Notes under the pieces: model-generated
What the model was told of the DNA's origin: nothing
The model's input: the letters and a program-made list of their open reading frames with translations, nothing else
The model's database searches: none
Made by a program: the position numbers and the translations under genes
Part shown: piece after piece, positions 22,499 to 56,600 of the stretch
Position numbering within the stretch: position 1 is the stretch's first letter
Layout: the number at the start of each line of letters is the position of its first letter
Assembly (NCBI GenBank): GCA_016218085.1
Contig: JACREY010000005.1
Coordinates: 1 to 64,000 of the forward strand
Reading direction: 5' to 3'
DNA from: Ignavibacteriota bacterium
Lineage (GTDB): Bacteria; Bacteroidota; Ignavibacteria; Tepidaquicellales; Tepidaquicellaceae
Length of the DNA: 64,000 nucleotides

Positions 22499-22518
22499 AT
22501 GATACCTTAAGGTATCAT
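22499..22518. promoter_or_regulatory. Perfect 20-bp palindrome at the start of the Rrf2 gene
   Basis: ATGATACCTT is followed directly by its reverse complement AAGGTATCAT, ending two bases before the ATG of the Rrf2 gene. Rrf2 regulators (IscR, NsrR) bind dyads of this size and often repress their own operon, so this is a strong candidate auto-operator. A regulator bound here would block promoter clearance or initiation of the whole respiratory operon. Confidence 0.75.
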
Positions 22519-22520
22519 TT

Positions 22521-22952
22521 ATGAATTTATCAAAAACATCCCAATACGCTTTAAAGATATTCAATTTTATGGTATTAAACGAAGGAACGGAATTCACCGC
22601 TCAGCTTTTGCATAACAGACTGAAAATACCATACCAATATTTAAGAAGATTGCTGACGAGGCTGTCCAATAAAGGGCTGATAAAAGGAGGGAAAGGCAGA
22701 GGCGGCGGATACGTGATTGCCAAAAGTTACGATTCGATTTTTTTATCTGACATACTAGAAGCAACAGGTGAGCCGAAAATATTTAATTCCTGTTTGTTCG
22801 GATTTGAAAGCTGTCTACTGGCAGAAAAGTGCAAAATACACGACAGGTGGTCGGAGGCAAGAGATAGCATAATTAATGTTTTACAGACTACTAATTTAAG
22901 CGCTCTGAAAGCAAAAAAGACGTCTAAAAAGATTTCAAAGTTAAATAAATAA
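22521..22952 (+). CDS. Rrf2 family regulator with three cysteines (NsrR/IscR-like)
   Basis: 143 residues. An N-terminal winged helix-turn-helix (residues ~1-65: SKTSQYALKIFNFM..., IPYQYLRRLLTRLSNKGLIKGGKGRGGGYVIAK) matches Rrf2 proteins. Cys91, Cys98 and Cys104 (NSC-LFGFES-C-LLAEK-C) form a C-x6-C-x5-C set close to the C-x5-C-x5/7-C iron-sulfur ligands of IscR and NsrR, so an NO- or redox-sensitive cluster is likely. It is first in an operon with two respiratory subunits (10-base gap). Together with the palindrome at 22499 this suggests autoregulated control by nitric oxide; the ligand is inferred from context. Confidence 0.88.
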   Translation: MNLSKTSQYALKIFNFMVLNEGTEFTAQLLHNRLKIPYQYLRRLLTRLSNKGLIKGGKGRGGGYVIAKSYDSIFLSDILEATGEPKIFNSCLFGFESCLLAEKCKIHDRWSEARDSIINVLQTTNLSALKAKKTSKKISKLNK

Positions 22953-22962
22953 ATTAAAAATT

Positions 22963-23520
22963 ATGGTTGATTCTCAAGTTGTATTAAATGGTCAGACATT
23001 TGCATATACATTTTATGCAATTGCAATCATCCTATTGATGGGGTGGTTTGGATTCAAATTAACAAAAGAGGGAAAAGGGAAGGCAGTAAGTTCGGGACTC
23101 TTTTATTCTTTTGTTGGAATGCTCGTAATCCTGGGTGTATCGCTGCATATTATTACTTACAATACAATTCCATGGGCACCGATGGATTTAAACAGAAACG
23201 ATATAAAGCCGGATAAATCCTTCAACATTACGGTTGCAAATCATAAATTCAGCCTGCCGTCTGAAAAACTGATGATAGATATAAACGATAAAGTATTGTT
23301 TGATGTATATTCACAGGACCTAACATACGGATTCGGACTTTTCAGACAGGATAATTCTATGTTATTCCAGATGCAGGTTGTTCCCGGGCACAGAAATGAT
23401 ATATTGTGGCAGTTTGACAAACCCGGAATTTATACAATCCGCTCGACTGAATATTCGGGACCGAAAGGCGCTAATATGGTATTAAAAGATGTAGTAGTTG
23501 TTCAGGAAAGAAAGAAATAA
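22963..23520 (+). CDS. Haem-copper oxidase/NOR subunit II-like cupredoxin without CuA ligands
   Basis: 185 residues: two N-terminal membrane helices (~12-32 and ~45-68) and a periplasmic cupredoxin domain. SQDLTYGFGLF, MQVVPGHRNDILWQFDKPGIYTIRSTEYSGPKGANMVL aligns with the subunit II consensus around the CuA site, but the ligand motif C-x-E-x-C-G-x-x-H-x-x-M reads S-T-E-Y-S-G-P-K-G-A-N-M. Both cysteines and the histidine are gone, so a binuclear copper centre cannot form; Met remains. There is no haem c motif. Electrons would therefore enter subunit I another way, perhaps directly from quinol. Lies between the Rrf2 gene and subunit I in one operon. Confidence 0.82.
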   Translation: MVDSQVVLNGQTFAYTFYAIAIILLMGWFGFKLTKEGKGKAVSSGLFYSFVGMLVILGVSLHIITYNTIPWAPMDLNRNDIKPDKSFNITVANHKFSLPSEKLMIDINDKVLFDVYSQDLTYGFGLFRQDNSMLFQMQVVPGHRNDILWQFDKPGIYTIRSTEYSGPKGANMVLKDVVVVQERKK

Positions 23521-23548
23521 ATAATTTTAAAATTTTAATATTATCAAT

Positions 23549-25183
23549 ATGACTTTTAAAGATACTTTTTTAAACGGGGCACAGGGATTGTTTAAACCTG
23601 TAAGTTTGACACCTATGCAAAAACTGGTTTTACGGTTTGTAGTCGTAGGTTTAATTTATTATGCGTTTGCAACCATAGAAGGTATGATTATGCGTATTTA
23701 CCAGATTGAACCGATTTCTGCTATCGCAGATTATCAGTATTTTGCGATATTAACAGCACATCCTCTCGTTGGTATATTCGGTTCGACATATTCAATAGTA
23801 TTCGGAGCGTTTTTGTTTCTTGTTCCTTTTTTAATGAAAAAACCAATATGGAGTTATAAGTTAGCTAACTGGACATTCTTATTAATTGCACTAGGTACTT
23901 TTGTTTTCTGGTTCGCAGGATTTGTTTCTCATTTTGCTCCCCTTTACACTTTATACTGGCCTCTTCCTGCTGATTTTTCGCAGTTCAGTCCGCTCGGAGG
24001 TACTTTTTTTGTATTGGGTATAGCACTTGTAATGGTTGGAACGGTTTTTTTTGTTATAAATATTTTCAAAACGATAACATACACACCCGAAGGATGGGAT
24101 AAACAGCCTGCAGGAGCTATGCTCGGTTCGGCTCTCGGATTCAGCGGCTTGAAAAATTTATTCAGAAAAAAAGAGGACAAAAAAGATCATCTCGTTTCTT
24201 TGCCCGTTGCGGCAATAGCGAGAGGTACTGTGGATACAGCTTTAAATGCGGGTATTATTTTATTTACAGGTGTGCTAATTCTTGTTTATTTGGTATCCCA
24301 TTTATTCGGAGTCGATTTAAAAAATACTGCTGTTGATGCTTTGCTTTATAAAAATTGGTTTTGGTGGGGACTGGATTTAATTGCGGATGGATTGGTTTTG
24401 ATTTTCGTTGCAGGTACTTGGTATCTTCTAGCAATGTTAATTACAGGCAAGAATCTTTTCATGCAGAATTATGCGCGTGCTGCTTTATTTATAGAGATGG
24501 TAGTTTCGTGGACGGTTTGGTCACATCATTTGCTTTCGGACCAGGCACAACCCGGATTTTTAAAAGTTTTATCGGGAGAAATGGTTACTGCGTTTGAACT
24601 GATTACACAAGGTCTGGCTTTCTTCATAACCCTTGCCACACTTTGGAGTGCAAGGCCTTTGAAAATGTCAAATGAATTAAAATTCCTTCTTGGTGGTTTG
24701 CTTGGATTTGCATTAGCAGTACCGGCGGGAATTATGCAGGCAGATATAGGCTTGAACAGGATTCTGCACAACACACAGTGGATTGTCGGTCCTCACGTTC
24801 ACGTTGCAATATTGGTAGGATTAACAATGACACTATATTCCGCAATATATATTCTTTTCCCGATTTTAACAAACGGAGCAAAACTCTATAGTCAGAAGCT
24901 TGCAACTTTCCATTTCTGGGCGCATTTAATCGGAGGAATAGGAATGGGAGCATTTATGGGAATGGCGGGACTCAAAGGAATGCTGAGGCGTACTATATAT
25001 GTAAACGGAGAATATAATATTTATATGGTTCTGGCGGCATTATGCGGAGGTTTGTTGTTGGTTGGTTTTCTTGCCTTCTTTCTTAATATTGTGATGAGTG
25101 TGGGATTAAAAGGTGTAATAGGTATATTTACACCGTCTAAACTTAATCCTAAAGAGCTTCTTCCCGTATCAGAAAACAAATAG
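23549..25183 (+). CDS. Divergent haem-copper oxidase-fold subunit I, probable nitric oxide reductase
   Basis: 544 residues with about 12-14 membrane helices. Haem ligands are conserved: His71 (TAHPLVG, helix II, low-spin haem), and His416 and His418 (GPHVHVA, helix X). Helix VII has the paired metal ligands His326-His327 (WSHHLLSD). Helix VI lacks the usual GHPEVY histidine and tyrosine and reads WWGLDLIADG (272-281), leaving Asp276 or Asp280 as possible third ligand. Loss of the cross-linked Tyr argues against oxygen reduction. With an Rrf2 regulator in front this fits NO reduction to N2O, as in the recently described NOR groups with altered active-site ligands. Product call is inference from motif and context. 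Confidence 0.8.
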   Translation: MTFKDTFLNGAQGLFKPVSLTPMQKLVLRFVVVGLIYYAFATIEGMIMRIYQIEPISAIADYQYFAILTAHPLVGIFGSTYSIVFGAFLFLVPFLMKKPIWSYKLANWTFLLIALGTFVFWFAGFVSHFAPLYTLYWPLPADFSQFSPLGGTFFVLGIALVMVGTVFFVINIFKTITYTPEGWDKQPAGAMLGSALGFSGLKNLFRKKEDKKDHLVSLPVAAIARGTVDTALNAGIILFTGVLILVYLVSHLFGVDLKNTAVDALLYKNWFWWGLDLIADGLVLIFVAGTWYLLAMLITGKNLFMQNYARAALFIEMVVSWTVWSHHLLSDQAQPGFLKVLSGEMVTAFELITQGLAFFITLATLWSARPLKMSNELKFLLGGLLGFALAVPAGIMQADIGLNRILHNTQWIVGPHVHVAILVGLTMTLYSAIYILFPILTNGAKLYSQKLATFHFWAHLIGGIGMGAFMGMAGLKGMLRRTIYVNGEYNIYMVLAALCGGLLLVGFLAFFLNIVMSVGLKGVIGIFTPSKLNPKELLPVSENK

Positions 25184-25205: not shown

Positions 25206-25230
25206 CACAGTGCGTTTGCACTGTGTTTTA
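25206..25230. terminator. Bidirectional intrinsic terminator
   Basis: CACAGTGC-GTTT-GCACTGTG forms a perfect 8-base stem, followed by TTTTATTTT on the plus strand and by TTTATTTTA on the minus strand. It ends both the respiratory operon and the convergent sugar operon. Confidence 0.88.
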
Positions 25231-26142
25231 TTTTAGCAATATCATTTTCTTTGTATCGGAAAATTTTACTCTCCTTAATTTTTCAATTTGCGATAGCTCG
25301 CTGTCATAAACTTTCTTCATTCCGTCACCCAATGAGTTTTCGATATCGCGGATATTTTTTACAAGTCTGTGAAGACCTTCGATTTCCACCGAAGCGGATT
25401 GGTCGGAGCCCCACATAGCCCTATCGAGAGTAATATGCCTTTCCACAAAGGCAGCACCGATAGAAACCGCAGCCCATGTTGGTGCAAGTCCGGTTTCGTG
25501 ACCGGAATAACCTACCGGTACAGAAGGATAAAGTTCTTTCAGGGTTTTTATCATATTCAGGTTGAGCTGGTCAACGGGGCAGGGATATGCCGATGTTGAA
25601 TGGGCAATTAACAGATTATCTTCACCGATTTCACTGACTGTATTTTTTATCTCGTTCATTGTTGACATACCTGTTGATATAATCAGAGGTTTTCCGGTTG
25701 ATTTTTTCTTTTTAAGAAGCTCAATATCGGTGAGAGATGCTGAAGATGCTTTATAGCAGGGGGGATTAAACTGTTCGATAAAATCCACGGATTCCTCGTC
25801 CCAGCACGAAGCAAACCAGTCGATTTTCATTTCTTTGCAGAATAGGTCTATTTCGGCGTACTGTTCTAGCGAGAATTCAACTTTATGTCTGTATTCCAGA
25901 TAAGTTATTCTTCCCCAGGGAGTATCTCTTTCTTTATCCCATTGGTCTTTTGGCACGCAAATTTCGGGAGTGCGTTTCTGGAATTTTACTGCATCACAAC
26001 CTGCTGCTTTCGCACCCATAATAAGCTGTTTTGCGATATCAACCGAACCGTTATGATTGATTCCGATTTCTCCTATAATATAAACTCTTTCGCTGTCTCC
26101 TACGTTTTTGTTTCCGATTGTTACTTTTGCTTTTTTTTCCAT
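25228..26142 (-). CDS. NeuB-type nonulosonate synthase, SAF domain missing, T9SS-like tail
   Basis: About 304 residues from ATG 26142 (a longer start at 26193 would run into the SDR gene). The TIM barrel of PEP-condensing sialic-acid-type synthases is complete: YIIGEIGINHNGSVDIAKQLI, AGCDAVKFQKR, FASCWDEESVDFI, KASSASLTDIELL, ISTGMSTMNEI, HSTSAYPCP, GYSGHETG and VERHITLDRAMWGSDQSASVE. It should join PEP to an amino-sugar to give a nonulosonic-type acid. The C-terminal SAF/antifreeze domain (about 60 residues) found in NeuB, LegI and PseI is absent. After LRRV the protein ends KFSDTKKMILLK, matching the last residues of T9SS cargo in this window. Last gene of the operon. Confidence 0.85.
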   Translation of the reverse strand: MEKKAKVTIGNKNVGDSERVYIIGEIGINHNGSVDIAKQLIMGAKAAGCDAVKFQKRTPEICVPKDQWDKERDTPWGRITYLEYRHKVEFSLEQYAEIDLFCKEMKIDWFASCWDEESVDFIEQFNPPCYKASSASLTDIELLKKKKSTGKPLIISTGMSTMNEIKNTVSEIGEDNLLIAHSTSAYPCPVDQLNLNMIKTLKELYPSVPVGYSGHETGLAPTWAAVSIGAAFVERHITLDRAMWGSDQSASVEIEGLHRLVKNIRDIENSLGDGMKKVYDSELSQIEKLRRVKFSDTKKMILLK

Positions 26143-26167
26143 AGTTTTATTATTTGATTTAATAATT

Positions 26168-26980
26168 TTACCAGGCAGTCCAGCCTCCGTCAACCACGAG
26201 GTTTGCGCCTGTCATATAAGACGAAGCATCGCTCGCAAGGAATACGACAGCGCCCAAATAATCGTCGGGTTTTGCCATTCTTCCGAGCATTGTTTTTTGG
26301 GAATAGTTTTTTACGAAATATTCATCCTGTTTATTTTCCACGCCACCCGGGGATAGTGCATTAACACGAATCCCTTTTTTCCCCCAGTAAGCGGCGAGGT
26401 AGCGTGTAAAATTAATTACAGCACCTTTAGCAGAAGGATAAGACGGAGACTTAAAGAATTTCTGATTTCCGTTTTCGTCTTCGTAAATTGACTGGTCGGG
26501 ACCAACGATTCCGTATGTAGAAGCTACATTAATTATGCTGCCTTTTTCTTTTTCCGCCATTCCGGCACCAAAAATTTTACAGCATAAAAACATTCCTGTT
26601 AGATTTACTTCGAGCGACCTGTTCCACATTTCCAGGGAATAGTTTTCGAATTTGGACTGTTCGAGAACCGAATTATCGTTGTTAAAAATATCGTTTAATG
26701 CGGCATTGTTTACAAGAGCGTCTATGGAATCCATTTTCGACAGGATAGCATTTCTTGCTCGTTTAATAGAATCTTCACTTCTTACATCCAGAACGGCGGC
26801 AAAGGAATTTTCATTCAGTTCTTTAGTAATTTTTTCGGCTTTTTCGATATCGATATCGCAAGCGACAACTGCGGCACCGAAGTCCGAAAGTGCTTTGCAC
26901 TGTGCGCTCCCAATCAAGCCTGCCGCACCAGTAACAATAACGGTTTTATTTTTCAACGAAAAAATATTTTCAGTACTCAT
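26168..26980 (-). CDS. SDR family oxidoreductase
   Basis: 270 residues of a classical short-chain dehydrogenase: VIVTGAAGLIGSAQCKAL (Rossmann TGxxxGxG), VACDIDIEKAEK after the second strand, VNNAALND (NNAG-like), and catalytic SYPSAKGA (Tyr-x-x-x-Lys), with S in INVAST before it. The end MTGANLVVDGGWTAW is typical. It overlaps the aminotransferase gene upstream by four bases (ATGA), so the two are translationally coupled. In the operon it probably reduces or oxidises an intermediate on the way to the NeuB substrate, comparable to PtmA in flagellar sugar clusters; that comparison is by gene context. Confidence 0.88.
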   Translation of the reverse strand: MSTENIFSLKNKTVIVTGAAGLIGSAQCKALSDFGAAVVACDIDIEKAEKITKELNENSFAAVLDVRSEDSIKRARNAILSKMDSIDALVNNAALNDIFNNDNSVLEQSKFENYSLEMWNRSLEVNLTGMFLCCKIFGAGMAEKEKGSIINVASTYGIVGPDQSIYEDENGNQKFFKSPSYPSAKGAVINFTRYLAAYWGKKGIRVNALSPGGVENKQDEYFVKNYSQKTMLGRMAKPDDYLGAVVFLASDASSYMTGANLVVDGGWTAW

Positions 26981-28308
26981 ACTTTTTCAACCTGTTTAAA
27001 ATTAGTTGTCTTGCGGAAAACCGGTTCAATCACACTGCCTTTAAGGTATTTTTTAATATTTCCTTCATCCACTGCTTTTTTGAGAATTGGCAGAGCATCT
27101 TCGTACGCTTCGAGAGTATATTTTACATCATCACCCGAATGGGAAAAGCACATATTGTGGAATCCTCCCCAGAGGATTCCGCGTTTAATCATTTCCTGCT
27201 GGAGGAGTGATTTCATTTCAAGCGGATTTGCCACATCGGGGTTAAAAGTTATAATTGTTCTCACATCATACCCGGAGCAAAATGTATAATCCATTCCGAG
27301 CGAGCCTGCGATTTTATTATAACCGTCTTTTAATTTCTTTCCCTGTTTGAATAAATACTCCGGTACGTTTTTTTCAACAATCTCATCAATGGTAGCAATT
27401 ACAGCGGCAAGCGAGAGCGCTTCACCACCGAATGTTGTAAAGAAGAAAACGTCTTTATCGAGAAGTCTCATAATTTCTTCTCTTCCTGTTAAAACCGATA
27501 CCGGCATTCCGTTTGCAATTGCTTTGGAATAAACCGCGAGGTCGGGTGAAATTCCGAAATACTCCTGTGCTCCGCCGGGCGCCATTCTGAACCCGGTCCA
27601 CATTTCGTCGAATATCAGGACGGCTCCTATTTTTTTACAGACAGACTGAACATTAAAAAGAAAATCGTTCGATGGTTTTTCGAAAATAGCCGGCTCCATA
27701 ATCACACAGGCAGTATCATAGTCTATTGCATCTATCAGAGAGTCGATATTATTATAATTAAAAGTAGTTACAAGGTCATTATTAAAAGAGGGTATTCCCG
27801 AATTTCTGTCGGTAACGCTAATATACCAATCGTGCCAACCGTGATATCCACAACACACAACTTTATTTTTTCTTGTGTAAGCTCTCGCAAGCCTGACAGC
27901 GGCAGAAGTAACATCGCATCCTGTTTTTGAGAACCGGATATTTTCAGCATTAAGTACAACGTTTCTGATTTTTTCAGCCGCTTTCACTTCGAGCGGATGC
28001 ATAAGTGAAAAAGTAATTCCATCTTCGAGTTGCTTTTTAATAGCTTCATCCACCCTGTCATATGCATACCCCAATACAATCGGACCGATTCCCATATTAA
28101 AGTCTATAAATTCGTTTCCGTCAACATCCCATACATGCGAGCCTTTTCCCTTACGGATATATTTTGGTGCAACCCCGTCAGTCCACTGCGAAGGACCTTT
28201 TGCAAGAGTCTGCGTGAGGGCAGGGATAAGGTGCTTTGCTTTATTTATAAGATTATCGGATTCAGTGATTAAGGGATAATCGTTTTTCAGATTTATTTTA
28301 TTTGCCAT
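26977..28308 (-). CDS. Class III aminotransferase (glutamate-1-semialdehyde aminomutase-like)
   Basis: 443 residues. GSHVWDVDGNEFIDFNMGIGPIVLGYAYDRV, FSKTGCDVTSAAVRLARAYTRKNKVVCCGYHGWHDWY, LIFDEMWTGFR (PLP pyridine Asp) and YSKAIANGMPVSV (PLP lysine) place it in the class III fold, nearest to HemL-like glutamate-1-semialdehyde 2,1-aminomutases. Here it sits in a sugar operon, so it more likely moves or adds an amino group on a keto-sugar made by the transketolase pair than takes part in haem synthesis. Start overlaps the stop of the transketolase C subunit (TAATG). Confidence 0.87.
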   Translation of the reverse strand: MANKINLKNDYPLITESDNLINKAKHLIPALTQTLAKGPSQWTDGVAPKYIRKGKGSHVWDVDGNEFIDFNMGIGPIVLGYAYDRVDEAIKKQLEDGITFSLMHPLEVKAAEKIRNVVLNAENIRFSKTGCDVTSAAVRLARAYTRKNKVVCCGYHGWHDWYISVTDRNSGIPSFNNDLVTTFNYNNIDSLIDAIDYDTACVIMEPAIFEKPSNDFLFNVQSVCKKIGAVLIFDEMWTGFRMAPGGAQEYFGISPDLAVYSKAIANGMPVSVLTGREEIMRLLDKDVFFFTTFGGEALSLAAVIATIDEIVEKNVPEYLFKQGKKLKDGYNKIAGSLGMDYTFCSGYDVRTIITFNPDVANPLEMKSLLQQEMIKRGILWGGFHNMCFSHSGDDVKYTLEAYEDALPILKKAVDEGNIKKYLKGSVIEPVFRKTTNFKQVEKV

Positions 28309-29213
28309 TATAGTTCTTCTAATTTTTTTATAATTCGTTTAGTTAAATTCAGAGGGGTAAGTTCTTCATATTCCAGAGCATCTTTTATAAGAGACGGTTT
28401 AAACCATTTTTCTTTAAAGGCTATTGGCAATATATTGCCTTTGATTTTATTGCAAGTCAGGACTTCAGAAACTATTGAAAACAATCCGCCTGTAAGAAAA
28501 TGGTCTTCGAGGATAACAGTCAGTCTCGAGTTCTTGACTGTACTAATAATAGTTTCTTCATCTACGGGTTTCAATGTTCTCATATTGACAAGACCGGCAT
28601 CAATTCCTTTCCATTTTAAAAGTCTTATAGTTTCAAATGCTTCGGTAAAAAGATAACCGTAAGTTAGAATATTAACATTTCTACCGGTCATGATAATTTC
28701 GGCTTTTCCTTCGGAAAAATCTGCTGAGTGAGAGTAGCAGGGTTTTCTGTTGTTATACCTGATATAATAAGGAGAGGAACTTGTAAGTATTTTTTCAATA
28801 CAAAGCATTAAATCATCTTCATCGGCAGGACAGAATATTTTCATATTAGGTATTCCACGCATAATCGAAATGTCTTCCAGAGCCTGATGAGTCGGACCGT
28901 TTGCTTCGGAAAGCAGTCCCGGTACGCCTCCGACTAATTTTACAGGCAGGTTTGCTATACCCACATCTGTTCTTATAAATTCAAAAGCTCTCATTGTTAA
29001 AAATGTTGCAAGCGCATGTGCTACGGGGATTCTCCCGCGATTTGCCAGACCCGCCGCCATTCCTACGAGAGTCATTTCCGTAATGCCGGTATCGATAAAT
29101 CTTTTCCCAATTTTAGACGGAAGGTTTCTGATTGCAGCCCTGTTTTCAGCCGTCATAATTATGAATCTTTCGTCTTTGGTAACGAGATTTTCAAGCAGTG
29201 TTTCGTAATTCAT
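28308..29213 (-). CDS. Transketolase C-terminal subunit (Pyr and C domains)
   Basis: 301 residues. KRFIDTGITEMTLVGMAAGLANRGRIPVAHALATFLTMRAFEFIRTDVG is the PYR domain with Glu of the GITE motif that activates thiamine diphosphate. SEANGPTHQALEDISIMRGIPNMKIFCPADEDD and the terminal domain (NVNILTYGYLFTEAFETIRLL...VDEETIISTV....TVILEDHFLTGGLFS) complete the half enzyme. It follows the N-terminal subunit with a single-base gap. Together they should form a two-subunit transketolase transferring a two-carbon ketol group; in this operon the acceptor is probably a sugar precursor rather than pentose-phosphate intermediates. Confidence 0.88.
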   Translation of the reverse strand: MNYETLLENLVTKDERFIIMTAENRAAIRNLPSKIGKRFIDTGITEMTLVGMAAGLANRGRIPVAHALATFLTMRAFEFIRTDVGIANLPVKLVGGVPGLLSEANGPTHQALEDISIMRGIPNMKIFCPADEDDLMLCIEKILTSSSPYYIRYNNRKPCYSHSADFSEGKAEIIMTGRNVNILTYGYLFTEAFETIRLLKWKGIDAGLVNMRTLKPVDEETIISTVKNSRLTVILEDHFLTGGLFSIVSEVLTCNKIKGNILPIAFKEKWFKPSLIKDALEYEELTPLNLTKRIIKKLEEL

Positions 29214-29214
29214 A

Positions 29215-30072
29215 TTATCTTACCATTAAAGTTTCCGAAGTTAAAATAGTTTTTTCCTGTGTTCTGAGTTCTTCTAGAAGGTTGTACACTTCTTCGTTTG
29301 TAAAATTGCAGAACCATCTGTCTGCACGCGATTCTATGCTTGGCAGACCTTTGCCTCTTAGCGTATCTGCGATTACAATTACAGGCATGTTATAATCTTC
29401 TTTTAAATCCGTGAAGATTTTTTCCATATCGATAAAGCTGTGTCCGTCGGTTGTTAGAACTTTCCATCCAAAAAGCAGAAATTTTTCAGCGAGAGGTTCG
29501 AGTTTAATTAGTTTTTCAGTTTCAATATTAGCCTGGAATTTGTTTCTATCCACGATAACAACAAGGTTATTCAGTTCAAGTGAAGGGGCGACCAGGAGTG
29601 CTTCCCATACAGAGCCTTCGTTAAGCTCTCCGTCTCCAAGAAGGACAACAACTTTATTATTTTGTCCGCAAAGCAAGCAGTCATAGGCAGTACCCATTGC
29701 AACGCTTAATAAATGTCCGAGCGAGCCGGAATGAAATTCCACACCGGGAATATTGGTATTAGGGTGCCAGTAAAGAAAATCCTTAGTGTTTAAATGATTG
29801 TTCAGCCTGCTCTTCTCGAGGAGCCCTGATTCGGCAAGTGTTCCGTAGAGAGCAGGGACGTCATGTCCTTTAGAGAGGAAGAAATAATCCCTTTGGGGAT
29901 TAGAGAGATTATCTTTTCCAATATTCAAAAAGCATTTGTACAGGTAAACGATAATATCAGCACAGGAAAGGGAAGCTCCGATAAAGCATCCTCCATCCGT
30001 TGACATTTTAATAATATGTTCCCTTACTTTAAATGCTGTTTCTTTGAGTTCGTTCAGTTTATCTATTGTCAT
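29215..30072 (-). CDS. Transketolase N-terminal subunit (thiamine diphosphate-binding)
   Basis: 285 residues. LSKGHDVPALYGTLAESGLL, FHSGSLGHLLSVAMGTAY and VVLLGDGELNEGSVWEALLVAPSLELNNLVVIVDRNKFQ supply the PP domain, with the GDG...N motif that binds magnesium and thiamine diphosphate. Length is that of the N-terminal half in split transketolases. Four-base overlap with the cytidylyltransferase gene upstream and one base before the C subunit show tight coupling. Confidence 0.9.
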   Translation of the reverse strand: MTIDKLNELKETAFKVREHIIKMSTDGGCFIGASLSCADIIVYLYKCFLNIGKDNLSNPQRDYFFLSKGHDVPALYGTLAESGLLEKSRLNNHLNTKDFLYWHPNTNIPGVEFHSGSLGHLLSVAMGTAYDCLLCGQNNKVVVLLGDGELNEGSVWEALLVAPSLELNNLVVIVDRNKFQANIETEKLIKLEPLAEKFLLFGWKVLTTDGHSFIDMEKIFTDLKEDYNMPVIVIADTLRGKGLPSIESRADRWFCNFTNEEVYNLLEELRTQEKTILTSETLMVR

Positions 30073-30878
30073 ATAATTTTTGTTTGTTCGGGAGAGATTG
30101 TTTTCAGGCTACCGATGTGGTTTCTATACCAGTTAACACCGTTGAATTTTTTATTTATTTCTTTCAGTTCGGGTTTAAGAATATCGGTCAGGTATAAAAT
30201 TTCTTTAAGACCGAACACGGGATTGCCCGGATACAATTCTTCAAATACTTTTTTTATTAATTCGTAATCTTCCTTATAATCAATTGTGAATCTATGTGTC
30301 ATAGAGTAATCAAGCCCTGTGTCCCATTCGACATTTCCGATTTTAAATGACTGCGGATTATCCCATATATACGGAGTTGTATGTTCTCTTTCAAAGAGCA
30401 TTTTCGATTTTTTCCAAGCCGCTTCGAGTGCACTGAATTTAAAAACTTCTACATCATTACCGTCGGGATAAGTAGCGGGATGCAGATTGCTTACATAATC
30501 AAATTCCGGATAAATTCCGATAAATCTTTCAAAAACTTTATCGATAATTTCCGGGTCAATCAGGGGGCAGTCAGATGGAATTTTTGCAATAACATCCGCT
30601 TCGTAATAAAGTGATGCATGATAGTACCTATCCAGCAAGTCATATTCGTCACCCCTGAAGTAGTTTATTTTTTCACTCTTGCATAAATCCACGATTAAAT
30701 CATCTTTTTTATTTTTTGTAGTTGCTATTACAATATTTTTTCCGAAGCGCGAGGCTTTAACTCTTTCCACCATACGGAGAAGAAGTTCTCTGCCGCAAAG
30801 CGGAAGAAGTATTTTATCTTCCAACCGTGTTGAGGATCTACGCGCCTGAATAATAATTATTATATTATCGATGTTCAT
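30069..30878 (-). CDS. SpsF-like cytidylyltransferase
   Basis: 269 residues. IIIIQARRSSTRLEDKILLPLCGRELLLRMVERVKAS is the nucleotide-binding start of the CMP-sugar synthetase (NeuA/KdsB/SpsF) fold; IPSDCPLIDPEIIDKVF follows, with the metal-binding Asp. DGNDVEVFKFSALEAAWK.....REHTTPYIW and the LRFTIDYKEDYELI-like segment (HRFTIDYKEDYELI) are typical of SpsF from spore-coat and glycan clusters. It would activate the final acid sugar with CTP. It follows the glycosyltransferase gene by 9 bases and overlaps the transketolase gene by four. Confidence 0.88.
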   Translation of the reverse strand: MNIDNIIIIIQARRSSTRLEDKILLPLCGRELLLRMVERVKASRFGKNIVIATTKNKKDDLIVDLCKSEKINYFRGDEYDLLDRYYHASLYYEADVIAKIPSDCPLIDPEIIDKVFERFIGIYPEFDYVSNLHPATYPDGNDVEVFKFSALEAAWKKSKMLFEREHTTPYIWDNPQSFKIGNVEWDTGLDYSMTHRFTIDYKEDYELIKKVFEELYPGNPVFGLKEILYLTDILKPELKEINKKFNGVNWYRNHIGSLKTISPEQTKII

Positions 30879-30887
30879 TAAATTTAT

Positions 30888-31901
30888 TTAAAATTCAGGA
30901 ACCGGAACTGCCAGTTTTTCATTAATACTATATCCTCTATCCATCAGTCCATTTATATGATATTCACAAATTCTTGCAATATTAACGGATGAAGTTCCCC
31001 CATTCTGCCTGGGAATCAGTGACTTTAACTGTTCAATATTAAAATCCGAATACACTTTTTTTCCGAGCGCAAGTCCGATGTAAACGACAGAAGAATATTT
31101 TGTAATCAATGTATCGCAGTTTGCAATCATTTCGCTTGTGTTTCCTTCCGAAAATACAAGTGAGCCGGGAGCATATTCTTTAATTTCCCTGAATGCTCTT
31201 TCGGTTTTTTCGTTAGGGTGAAGTTTAAAGATAATCTGTTTCCCATTTGCAATTTTTACAGCTTTTTCGATAAATTTTTTTCTGTTTTCATATTTAAATG
31301 TTTCTCTCGAATCGGAAGTACAAACCAGTACATAATCTTTGTTCGGGAATTTATTTTTAAGATGTCTTTTGCAGTTATCAAAATTCGGAATTCCGGTCAC
31401 TATTATTTTTTCGGCTTTTATTCCGTTTTTAATGAACATATTTTTATATCCTTCAGATGCCACGCAGAAATAATCATATTTATTAGAAAGTCCTGTAGTG
31501 GATGTGCTGGCAAGGTATCTCGGCAGACCGAGATATTTTGCGGTATAAAAGAAAAGGTTCTTTTTGTCGGTCATTCCTTCCTGCACGAGAATTACTTTTT
31601 TTCCTTTGAGATTTTTTTGTAAAATAAGGTCGGTACATGTAACAACAAGTTCGTAATCATTTTTCTGTCCTTTGTAATCAATTTTTAGTCCGTTCACAGA
31701 AAGATAATTATCTGTATCCCTTTTAAAATTCCCGCCAAGAATGGTAAAATCGAGAAAACCCTTTTTTCTAAGCTTTTCGAGATAACCGTTAGTATAGAAA
31801 GGTGTAAACCAGCAGTCATACCTGTCGCTTAATTGTTTTGATATCCGGTGCATCATTGTAGTCTGGTTAAGTGAGCCGCAAATAAAAAGAATTTTCTTCA
31901 T
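30888..31901 (-). CDS. GT-B-like glycosyltransferase / CDP-glycerol phosphotransferase-like protein
   Basis: About 337 residues from ATG 31901 (MKKILFICGSLNQTTMM...); an ATG 24 bases further out would add eight residues with no homology cue. The C-terminal half has IIFKLHPNEKTERAF, SLVFSEGNTSEMIANCDTLITKYSSVVYIGLALGKKVYSDF, the pattern of GT-B enzymes such as CDP-glycerol glycerophosphotransferases, polysialyltransferase-like and UDP-GlcNAc epimerase-like proteins. VPNFDNC-like (TGIPNFDNC) marks the domain link. As the first gene of the operon it may use the CMP-activated sugar as donor. Exact class not certain. Confidence 0.65.
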   Translation of the reverse strand: MKKILFICGSLNQTTMMHRISKQLSDRYDCWFTPFYTNGYLEKLRKKGFLDFTILGGNFKRDTDNYLSVNGLKIDYKGQKNDYELVVTCTDLILQKNLKGKKVILVQEGMTDKKNLFFYTAKYLGLPRYLASTSTTGLSNKYDYFCVASEGYKNMFIKNGIKAEKIIVTGIPNFDNCKRHLKNKFPNKDYVLVCTSDSRETFKYENRKKFIEKAVKIANGKQIIFKLHPNEKTERAFREIKEYAPGSLVFSEGNTSEMIANCDTLITKYSSVVYIGLALGKKVYSDFNIEQLKSLIPRQNGGTSSVNIARICEYHINGLMDRGYSINEKLAVPVPEF

Positions 31902-32105
31902 AAAAAATTTATTGACTTTATACAAATGTTCAAAATTTTCTTGTTTTATCTATAAAGGAATCGTAAATAAATATTAAAAATATCTTATAAGAGGAGATAA
32001 GAAAAATCAGAATCGTTATGATGCTTAACGTTTTAATAACACACAGGAAAACATTTGTTAACACAATGTCTCTATTTTTAAAATTGTTTAATTAATTATT
32101 TTATA

Positions 32106-55577: not shown

Positions 55578-56600
55578 TTACTGAACACCACCCCGCATAT
55601 GGTCGAGTTTTTCTATGTTTTTGAAGTGGCGAAGGTATTCTTCTTTAGTAACATTATTCTGCCATTTGCCTGAGAGCATAGCAATTCCGGTAGCAAGGAG
55701 AAAAACTGAAATTACAATTCCTGCGGCAATTTTTTTATTAATTTCTTTTTTAACCAGAACAGGTTTAAAATACAAAGTACTTTTTACAGGACAGGCATCT
55801 ACGCAGCTCATACAGGATGTACATTCATCTGAAATTACGCTTTTCATTTTATGTACTTTTATAAAAGACGGACAGGCTTTTGTACAGGCTTTGCAGTCTG
55901 TGCAGGTTTCGGTGTTGCGTTTTATTTTTGCAGGACTGAAAAGCGATATAAATCCGAGCAGTGCGCCGTATGGACAAAGATACCTGCACCAGAAATTTCT
56001 GAATACGATTGAAAGAACAATCAGCACTCCGATTACAATCAACGAGAACTGCGAAATCTTTGCAAAGAAATAATACATTTTTACATCAGCAACTAAATTG
56101 TAAGGGCTATCGAGGAATGCTTTCAGTACAATTTCATTCATCATAAAAAACACTGTATAAAAAAGAAAAGCCAGCAGGAGATATTTAATGCTTCTCAAAG
56201 GGTAGTCGAGGAACTTCGGCATTTTAATTTTTCTTCTGAAAATCTTATCACCGAGATTTGCGAGCATCTCGGAAATAAACCCCACAGGGCAGAACCAGCT
56301 GCAGAAGGATTTACCGATTAAGAAAGACATAAAAATAATTGCGAAGAAAATCACCAGACCTGCCGGATGCGCGGGATGTATATTTCCCGTCAGAAAAAAA
56401 TAATATAGACTCATCATAGAACTGATAGGCAGGAAGCCGTCAACTCCGGGAGGACGGGTGGAAAATTCGAGTGCTCCGCCTGATTCGAGAAAATTTACAA
56501 ATTTATAAAAATCATACCCAATCCAGATGCAAAGAAATACAAAAGCAATCTGGATTATAAATCTGAATGTTTGAATGGGTTTTTCAATATTTCTTACCAT
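55578..56600 (-). CDS. Membrane polyferredoxin (NapH/NosR/CcoG-like 4Fe-4S protein)
   Basis: 340 residues with about five membrane helices. Two conserved C-x3-CP clusters are in loops: CSWFCPVG (about residue 111-118) and CRYLCPYG (about 210-217). Two classical 4Fe-4S sites follow: CTDCKACTKACP and CTSCMSCVDACP. This layout is that of NapH, NosR C-terminal domains and the YccM/CcoG relatives, which move electrons from quinol or maintain redox enzymes. No partner enzyme is encoded beside it. A TTTGAC-N4-GTCAAA dyad about 57 bases upstream suggests control by an FNR/DNR-type regulator, in line with anaerobic or NO-linked respiration. Confidence 0.85.
   Translation of the reverse strand: MVRNIEKPIQTFRFIIQIAFVFLCIWIGYDFYKFVNFLESGGALEFSTRPPGVDGFLPISSMMSLYYFFLTGNIHPAHPAGLVIFFAIIFMSFLIGKSFCSWFCPVGFISEMLANLGDKIFRRKIKMPKFLDYPLRSIKYLLLAFLFYTVFFMMNEIVLKAFLDSPYNLVADVKMYYFFAKISQFSLIVIGVLIVLSIVFRNFWCRYLCPYGALLGFISLFSPAKIKRNTETCTDCKACTKACPSFIKVHKMKSVISDECTSCMSCVDACPVKSTLYFKPVLVKKEINKKIAAGIVISVFLLATGIAMLSGKWQNNVTKEEYLRHFKNIEKLDHMRGGVQ

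Follow-up and report, generated by a model that had tools for sequence, protein, structure and literature searches.

Gene order and features of the locus

Three tightly spaced ORFs on the + strand occupy positions 22521–25183 of the window (by which we mean the whole stretch of 64,000 nucleotides that was analyzed), and encode, in this order, an Rrf2 regulator, a subunit II and a subunit I of a haem-copper enzyme, with intergenic gaps of 10 nt between rrf2 and the subunit II gene and of 28 nt between the two subunit genes (Table 1). The pairing of subunit II with subunit I was constant (76/79 loci), and an Rrf2 gene was located upstream of this two-gene module in approximately 48 of the 79, while the remaining neighbors differed between loci. 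Subunit I passed none of the curated NCBIfam cut-offs in a profile search and Pfam returned COX1 only, so that automatic annotation would name such proteins cytochrome oxidases. The adjoining region of the opposite strand (25228–31925) holds a surface-sugar cluster with a NeuB-type synthase, a class-III aminotransferase, a split transketolase, a cytidylyltransferase and a CDP-glycerol-type transferase.

Table 1. Features of the rrf2–subunit II–subunit I locus, in window positions.
Feature	Position	Strand	Remarks
Perfect 20-bp palindrome ATGATACCTTAAGGTATCAT	22499..22518	.	Separated by 2 bp from the rrf2 ATG downstream; candidate Rrf2 operator
Rrf2-family regulator gene	22521..22952	+	143 aa; Pfam PF02082, 89 bits
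Subunit II gene	22963..23520	+	185 aa; weak CoxB match
S161-T-E163-Y-S165 of subunit II, at the C-x-E-x-C place of CuA proteins	23443..23457	+	Invariant in 40 aligned subunits II; opposite CLEFC of L021
Subunit I gene, haem-copper superfamily	23549..25183	+	544 aa; Pfam PF00115 (COX1), 178 bits
H71, low-spin haem ligand, helix II	23759..23761	+	Aligns with the helix II His in all families
WWGLDLIADG motif, helix VI, residues 272–281	24362..24391	+	80/80 relatives, I/V at one position
D276, at the CuB/FeB histidine position of helix VI	24374..24376	+	Alignment with cNOR WW..H, A/B GHP and Asn-type GH
D280, at the cross-linked Tyr / sNOR Asn / cNOR Glu position, i+4 from D276	24386..24388	+	Alignment
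H326-H327, helix VII metal-B ligands	24524..24529	+	Invariant in all aligned families
H416 and H418, high-spin and low-spin haem ligands, helix X	24794..24802	+	Aligned with the helix X HxH

Active-site residues and conservation of subunit I

The original prediction had assigned to subunit I the ligands H71, H326-H327, H416 and H418 and the helix VI sequence WWGLDLIADG; its residue numbering proved right, the helix VI motif spanning residues 272–281. It had also held that the third metal histidine and the cross-linked Tyr were both missing, with Asp276 or Asp280 as the replacement. We examined this in an alignment of 59 sequences that covered the family, A-, B- and C-family oxidases, cNOR (L149, L150, L154), qNOR (L151, L152) and Asn-type enzymes (L021, L174–L179). 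Both residues were indeed absent from subunit I; replacement by Asp held true, and the choice between the two candidates gave way to both, with Asp276 at the position of the metal-B His and Asp280 at that of the Tyr. Three metal-B histidines with a nearby Tyr, as found in A-, B- and C-family oxygen reductases, do not occur in subunit I. Its helix VI reads D-x3-D, not the His-x3-Glu of cNOR and qNOR (HLWVEG), and it does not fit the sNOR pattern GH-x3-N, the partner subunit II also being without CuA. The family bears a further mark in the alignment, namely a one-residue insertion immediately before H416.

A histidine supplied from elsewhere to the metal site would have told against the predicted ligand loss, and comparison of subunit I with a distant Chloroflexota homologue yielded no sequence candidate for such a residue: the only other histidines common to the two proteins, H407 and H455, align with the HNT and HFW motifs of ordinary haem-copper enzymes. 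The AF2 model of subunit I had a clear HCO fold (VIA-align Z 30–34 to oxidases), with low-confidence pLDDT values of 46–66 around the active site. Neither cNOR nor qNOR was among the 50 structure matches listed for subunit I, an absence that we do not take as evidence, and searches of the PDB, both with the single sequence and with a profile, returned cbb3 subunits only, aligned mainly over the C-terminal third, with no close solved relative.

Relatives of subunit I were present in 394 stretches of a species-representative collection. The best 80 of these 394 were 75–86% identical to subunit I and came mostly from Bacteroidales and Ignavibacteria MAGs; all 80 carried WWGLD(I/V)ADG, with one further residue variable, together with WSHH, and all 80 had the Asp at the cross-linked Tyr position (D280) that marks gNOR. 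H71, D276, D280, H326-H327, H416 and H418 were all invariant over 73 aligned rows, and the Chloroflexota homologue, at 42% identity, retained the haem ligands and the Asp pair and was accompanied by a subunit II of the same type. The Asp pair, kept in each of these 80 relatives and at 42% identity, is not there by chance.

No relative of subunit I was found on viral contigs, and plasmids gave distant oxidases only, mostly haloarchaeal. A scan of the phylum of G298 gave no second family member, and a scan of the phylum of G297 gave one further member, L188. Very similar copies at L058, L068, L088 and L103 were found in MAGs assigned to Anaerolineae, Patescibacteria, Acidobacteriota and Neomarinimicrobiota, and these host labels reflect either horizontal transfer or binning errors. 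Two family copies were present in G733, the genome of L082 (contigs C12 and C26), one of them convergent with a neighboring gene for a probable qNOR of 750 aa.

Subunit II and the predicted electron donor

Subunit II comprises two N-terminal TM helices followed by a cupredoxin domain that lacks the CuA ligands, as does the subunit II by which gNOR is recognized (PMC8906906). Its match to CoxB was weak (E 4.8e-8), its AF2 model had a pLDDT of 87.6, and its top Foldseek matches were the subunits II of caa3, bo3 and ba3. Alignment with the sNOR-type subunit II revealed that the CuA Cys/Cys/His/His set is replaced by Ser/Ser/Gly/Tyr. Because the cupredoxin fold is kept and the CuA ligands are not, the electron donor is probably quinol rather than cytochrome c, by analogy with bo3 oxidases.

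Phylogenetic position and relation to known NO reductases

The family formed a single clade (100/100) that lay outside the A, B, C, cNOR and qNOR groups and branched on the A/B side (99.4/100). The Asn type appeared as its sister with weak support (35/77 and 47/84). The AU test rejected a grouping with the C family (0.045) and did not reject groupings with cNOR/qNOR (0.083), B (0.41) or A (0.31); since the C-family grouping is the only one rejected, the deep position of the family could go several ways.

In NORs, the Tyr of the oxidases is replaced by Glu, Gln, Asp or Asn (PMC3475470), and the same paper reports, with reference to Hemp & Gennis 2008 and to Sievert et al. 2008, that certain NOR types have Asp for one metal histidine. 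gNOR is the Asp type (PMC8756737, Table A4), the gNOR encoded by norGH is quinone-oxidising and non-electrogenic (PMC8906906), and PMC11388526 relates sNOR, gNOR and nNOR to the enzymes of the B family. Likened to gNOR by published description, the family shares with it Asp in place of Tyr, a two-subunit composition with a cupredoxin-type subunit II, the probable quinone donor and kinship with the B family. A further likeness is the His-to-Asp change of a metal ligand, present here as D276 in helix VI, for which PMC3475470 gives the Sulfurimonas genome paper as its source; we infer that the NOR type with this published change is gNOR. The original suggestion that this may be an undescribed ligand set had to be dropped, because Tyr-to-Asp and His-to-Asp changes in NORs (PMC3475470), Asp as the gNOR type (PMC8756737) and the quinone donor were already published.

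The sNOR or CuA-NOR group (the Asn type; L021, L174–L179) resembles the family in being two-subunit and B-related, in the common motifs LDAL.KN and HNT.W, and in its weakly supported sister position. However, sNOR has all three metal histidines (GHxxxN), and its operon contains a SenC/SCO gene; the Asn-type locus L021 encodes a subunit II that binds CuA, a SenC protein and a membrane protein, as PMC3475470 describes for sNOR. cNOR and qNOR likewise have a carboxylate at i+4 after the helix VI metal-ligand position (HLWVEG, compared with DLIADG here) and reduce NO, whereas they keep the helix VI His and have a cytochrome c subunit or fused domain, and the clade of the present family is separate from theirs. 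The B-family (ba3-type) oxygen reductases share the fold, the haem ligands and the HNT.W motif, but GHPxVY is replaced and CuA is lost in the present family, which forms a clade of its own.

The hosts of gNOR (norGH) are Sulfurimonas, Sulfurovum, Persephonella and Ca. Methylomirabilis, in contrast to the mainly Bacteroidales and Ignavibacteria hosts of the family described here, which also has an Rrf2 gene in its operon. It is possible, though we do not favor it, that these enzymes are members of nNOR (Murali et al. 2024), or of an unnamed sister group of gNOR that shares the Asp pair, and reduce NO in either case: the clade is centred on Bacteroidota, has its own signature in the extra residue before H416 and is tied to no named gNOR sequence, and nNOR is B-related as well (PMC11388526), but the Asp for Tyr, the quinone donor and the published His-to-Asp change all fit gNOR, as weighed on the gNOR description alone. 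We regard as rather unlikely the stronger proposal of a separate Asp-type NOR family, distinct from gNOR and with a copper-free His2-Asp2 iron site, whose Bacteroidales and Ignavibacteria hosts without NirS or NirK would be overlooked NO sinks and N2O sources.

The Rrf2 regulator and its candidate operator

The regulator had been described in the original prediction as NsrR/IscR-like. The Rrf2 protein has the Fe-S type motif C-x6-C-x5-C-x2-H, which was present in 51/51 Rrf2 proteins near these operons, and its best NCBIfam subfamily was IscR, at 57 bits and far under the cut-off of 207; the NsrR model was not passed (29.8 bits, cut-off 182), and what stood of the description was an Rrf2 protein with an IscR-like Cys3-His motif.

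For the 20-bp palindrome in front of rrf2, shuffled sequences gave an expectation of 0 at ≤3 mismatches. An inverted repeat was seen at the same place in relatives, with ≥7/8 arm pairs at 14 of 50 loci compared with 2.9% in shuffled sequence, an excess that is indicative only, as the loci are related and non-independent. The arms of the repeat change together between relatives. A search of the nos cluster for an operator shared with the palindrome found none. It is plausible that the palindrome is an autoregulatory operator of the Rrf2 protein.

Genomic context

Two family loci, L035 and L062, have a qNOR gene as neighbor, along with genes for hemerythrin-like and Rrf2 proteins, and L062 also has an iron-sulfur repair (RIC) gene; this qNOR neighborhood is confined to few loci and neighbors vary elsewhere. 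The source genome encodes a clade-II nosZ with RIC, nosL, nosF and nosY. Across genomes, co-occurrence of nosZ with the family was not above background (4/9 carriers compared with 99/296 genomes overall, p 0.49). No full-length NirS match was found among 59 carriers, the source genome included, and NirK was present in only 3 of the 59 and absent from the source genome, such that a role in denitrification is not indicated. A strong NrfA-type match was present in 22 of 50 carriers, and enzymes of this type can release some NO.

Several further observations concern the same genome. In its nos cluster, the NosD ORF (L113 14747–15364) covers only positions 177–377 of the NosD model, possibly owing to a frameshift or an assembly error. 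On the same contig (C3), L113 16815–17270 encodes a protein of a 151–154 aa type whose resemblance is to haem-copper subunit I over its first helices; it adjoins nosF/nosY here, and in L074, L087, L098 and L109 proteins of this type precede the enzyme. Within the window, positions 55578–56600 of the minus strand encode a membrane protein with 4Fe-4S domains (Fer4_5), NapH/NosR-like by eye, which could possibly be an electron-transfer partner.

The source genome has subunit I as its only intact haem-copper enzyme, and in 13 of 50 carrier genomes the family subunit I was the only PF00115 match, so that some hosts may rely on it as their sole such enzyme. Together with the haem-copper fold, this would suit an oxygen reductase that needs no cross-linked Tyr and binds its metal through a carboxylate; we consider such an enzyme very improbable, given that the clade stands apart from families A, B and C, that additional haem-copper matches occur in the other 37 carriers, many of them with the scores of ordinary oxidases, and that we know of no oxygen reductase family lacking this Tyr. 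Just as improbable is a non-respiratory protein, whether a sensor that binds NO or O2 or a remnant without redox activity that has been retained alongside its regulator, as the loss of a metal ligand and the regulator in the operon might suggest, since all haem ligands and both Asp residues are strongly conserved over 42–86% identity and the conserved subunit II has an oxidase-like fold.

Discussion

We put at roughly two in three the probability that this two-gene enzyme is an Asp-type (gNOR-like) NO reductase, matched to gNOR by published description and not by sequence; membership of the family in gNOR itself appears probable. The lost Tyr, the lost metal His, the absence of CuA, a clade outside the oxygen-reductase families and the two loci adjoining qNOR all agree with the non-canonical NO reductase that had originally been inferred. 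NO as the substrate also draws support from the family copy next to a probable qNOR in G733 and from the clade-II nos cluster of the source genome, in which subunit I is the sole intact haem-copper enzyme.

As an Asp-type NO reductase, subunit I would hold its low-spin haem on H71 and H418 and its high-spin haem on H416, beside which a non-haem metal would be bound by H326, H327 and Asp276, with Asp280 standing in for the catalytic Tyr of the oxidases or the Glu of cNOR. The reaction would combine two NO and two electrons to give N2O, the electrons being delivered from quinol with a subunit II devoid of CuA. Two histidines with one or two carboxylates form a typical non-haem iron site, and the metal site would be better suited to iron than to copper; because such a site suits iron and CuA is also gone, the complex may be copper-free. 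The Rrf2 protein would sense NO or the Fe-S state and control the operon via the palindrome before its own start codon.

The job of such an enzyme would be to detoxify or respire NO coming from neighbors and, where nosZ is present, as in the source genome, the resulting N2O could be further reduced to N2. The enzyme more likely scavenges external NO than takes part in classical denitrification, as carriers almost never encode NirS or NirK. The site of two histidines and a carboxylate would be well suited as a natural case for asking whether metal B of NORs must be iron. Should these enzymes reduce NO, many anaerobic members of the Bacteroidota and Ignavibacteria that have neither NirS nor NirK could turn NO into N2O, which would change who counts as an N2O source.
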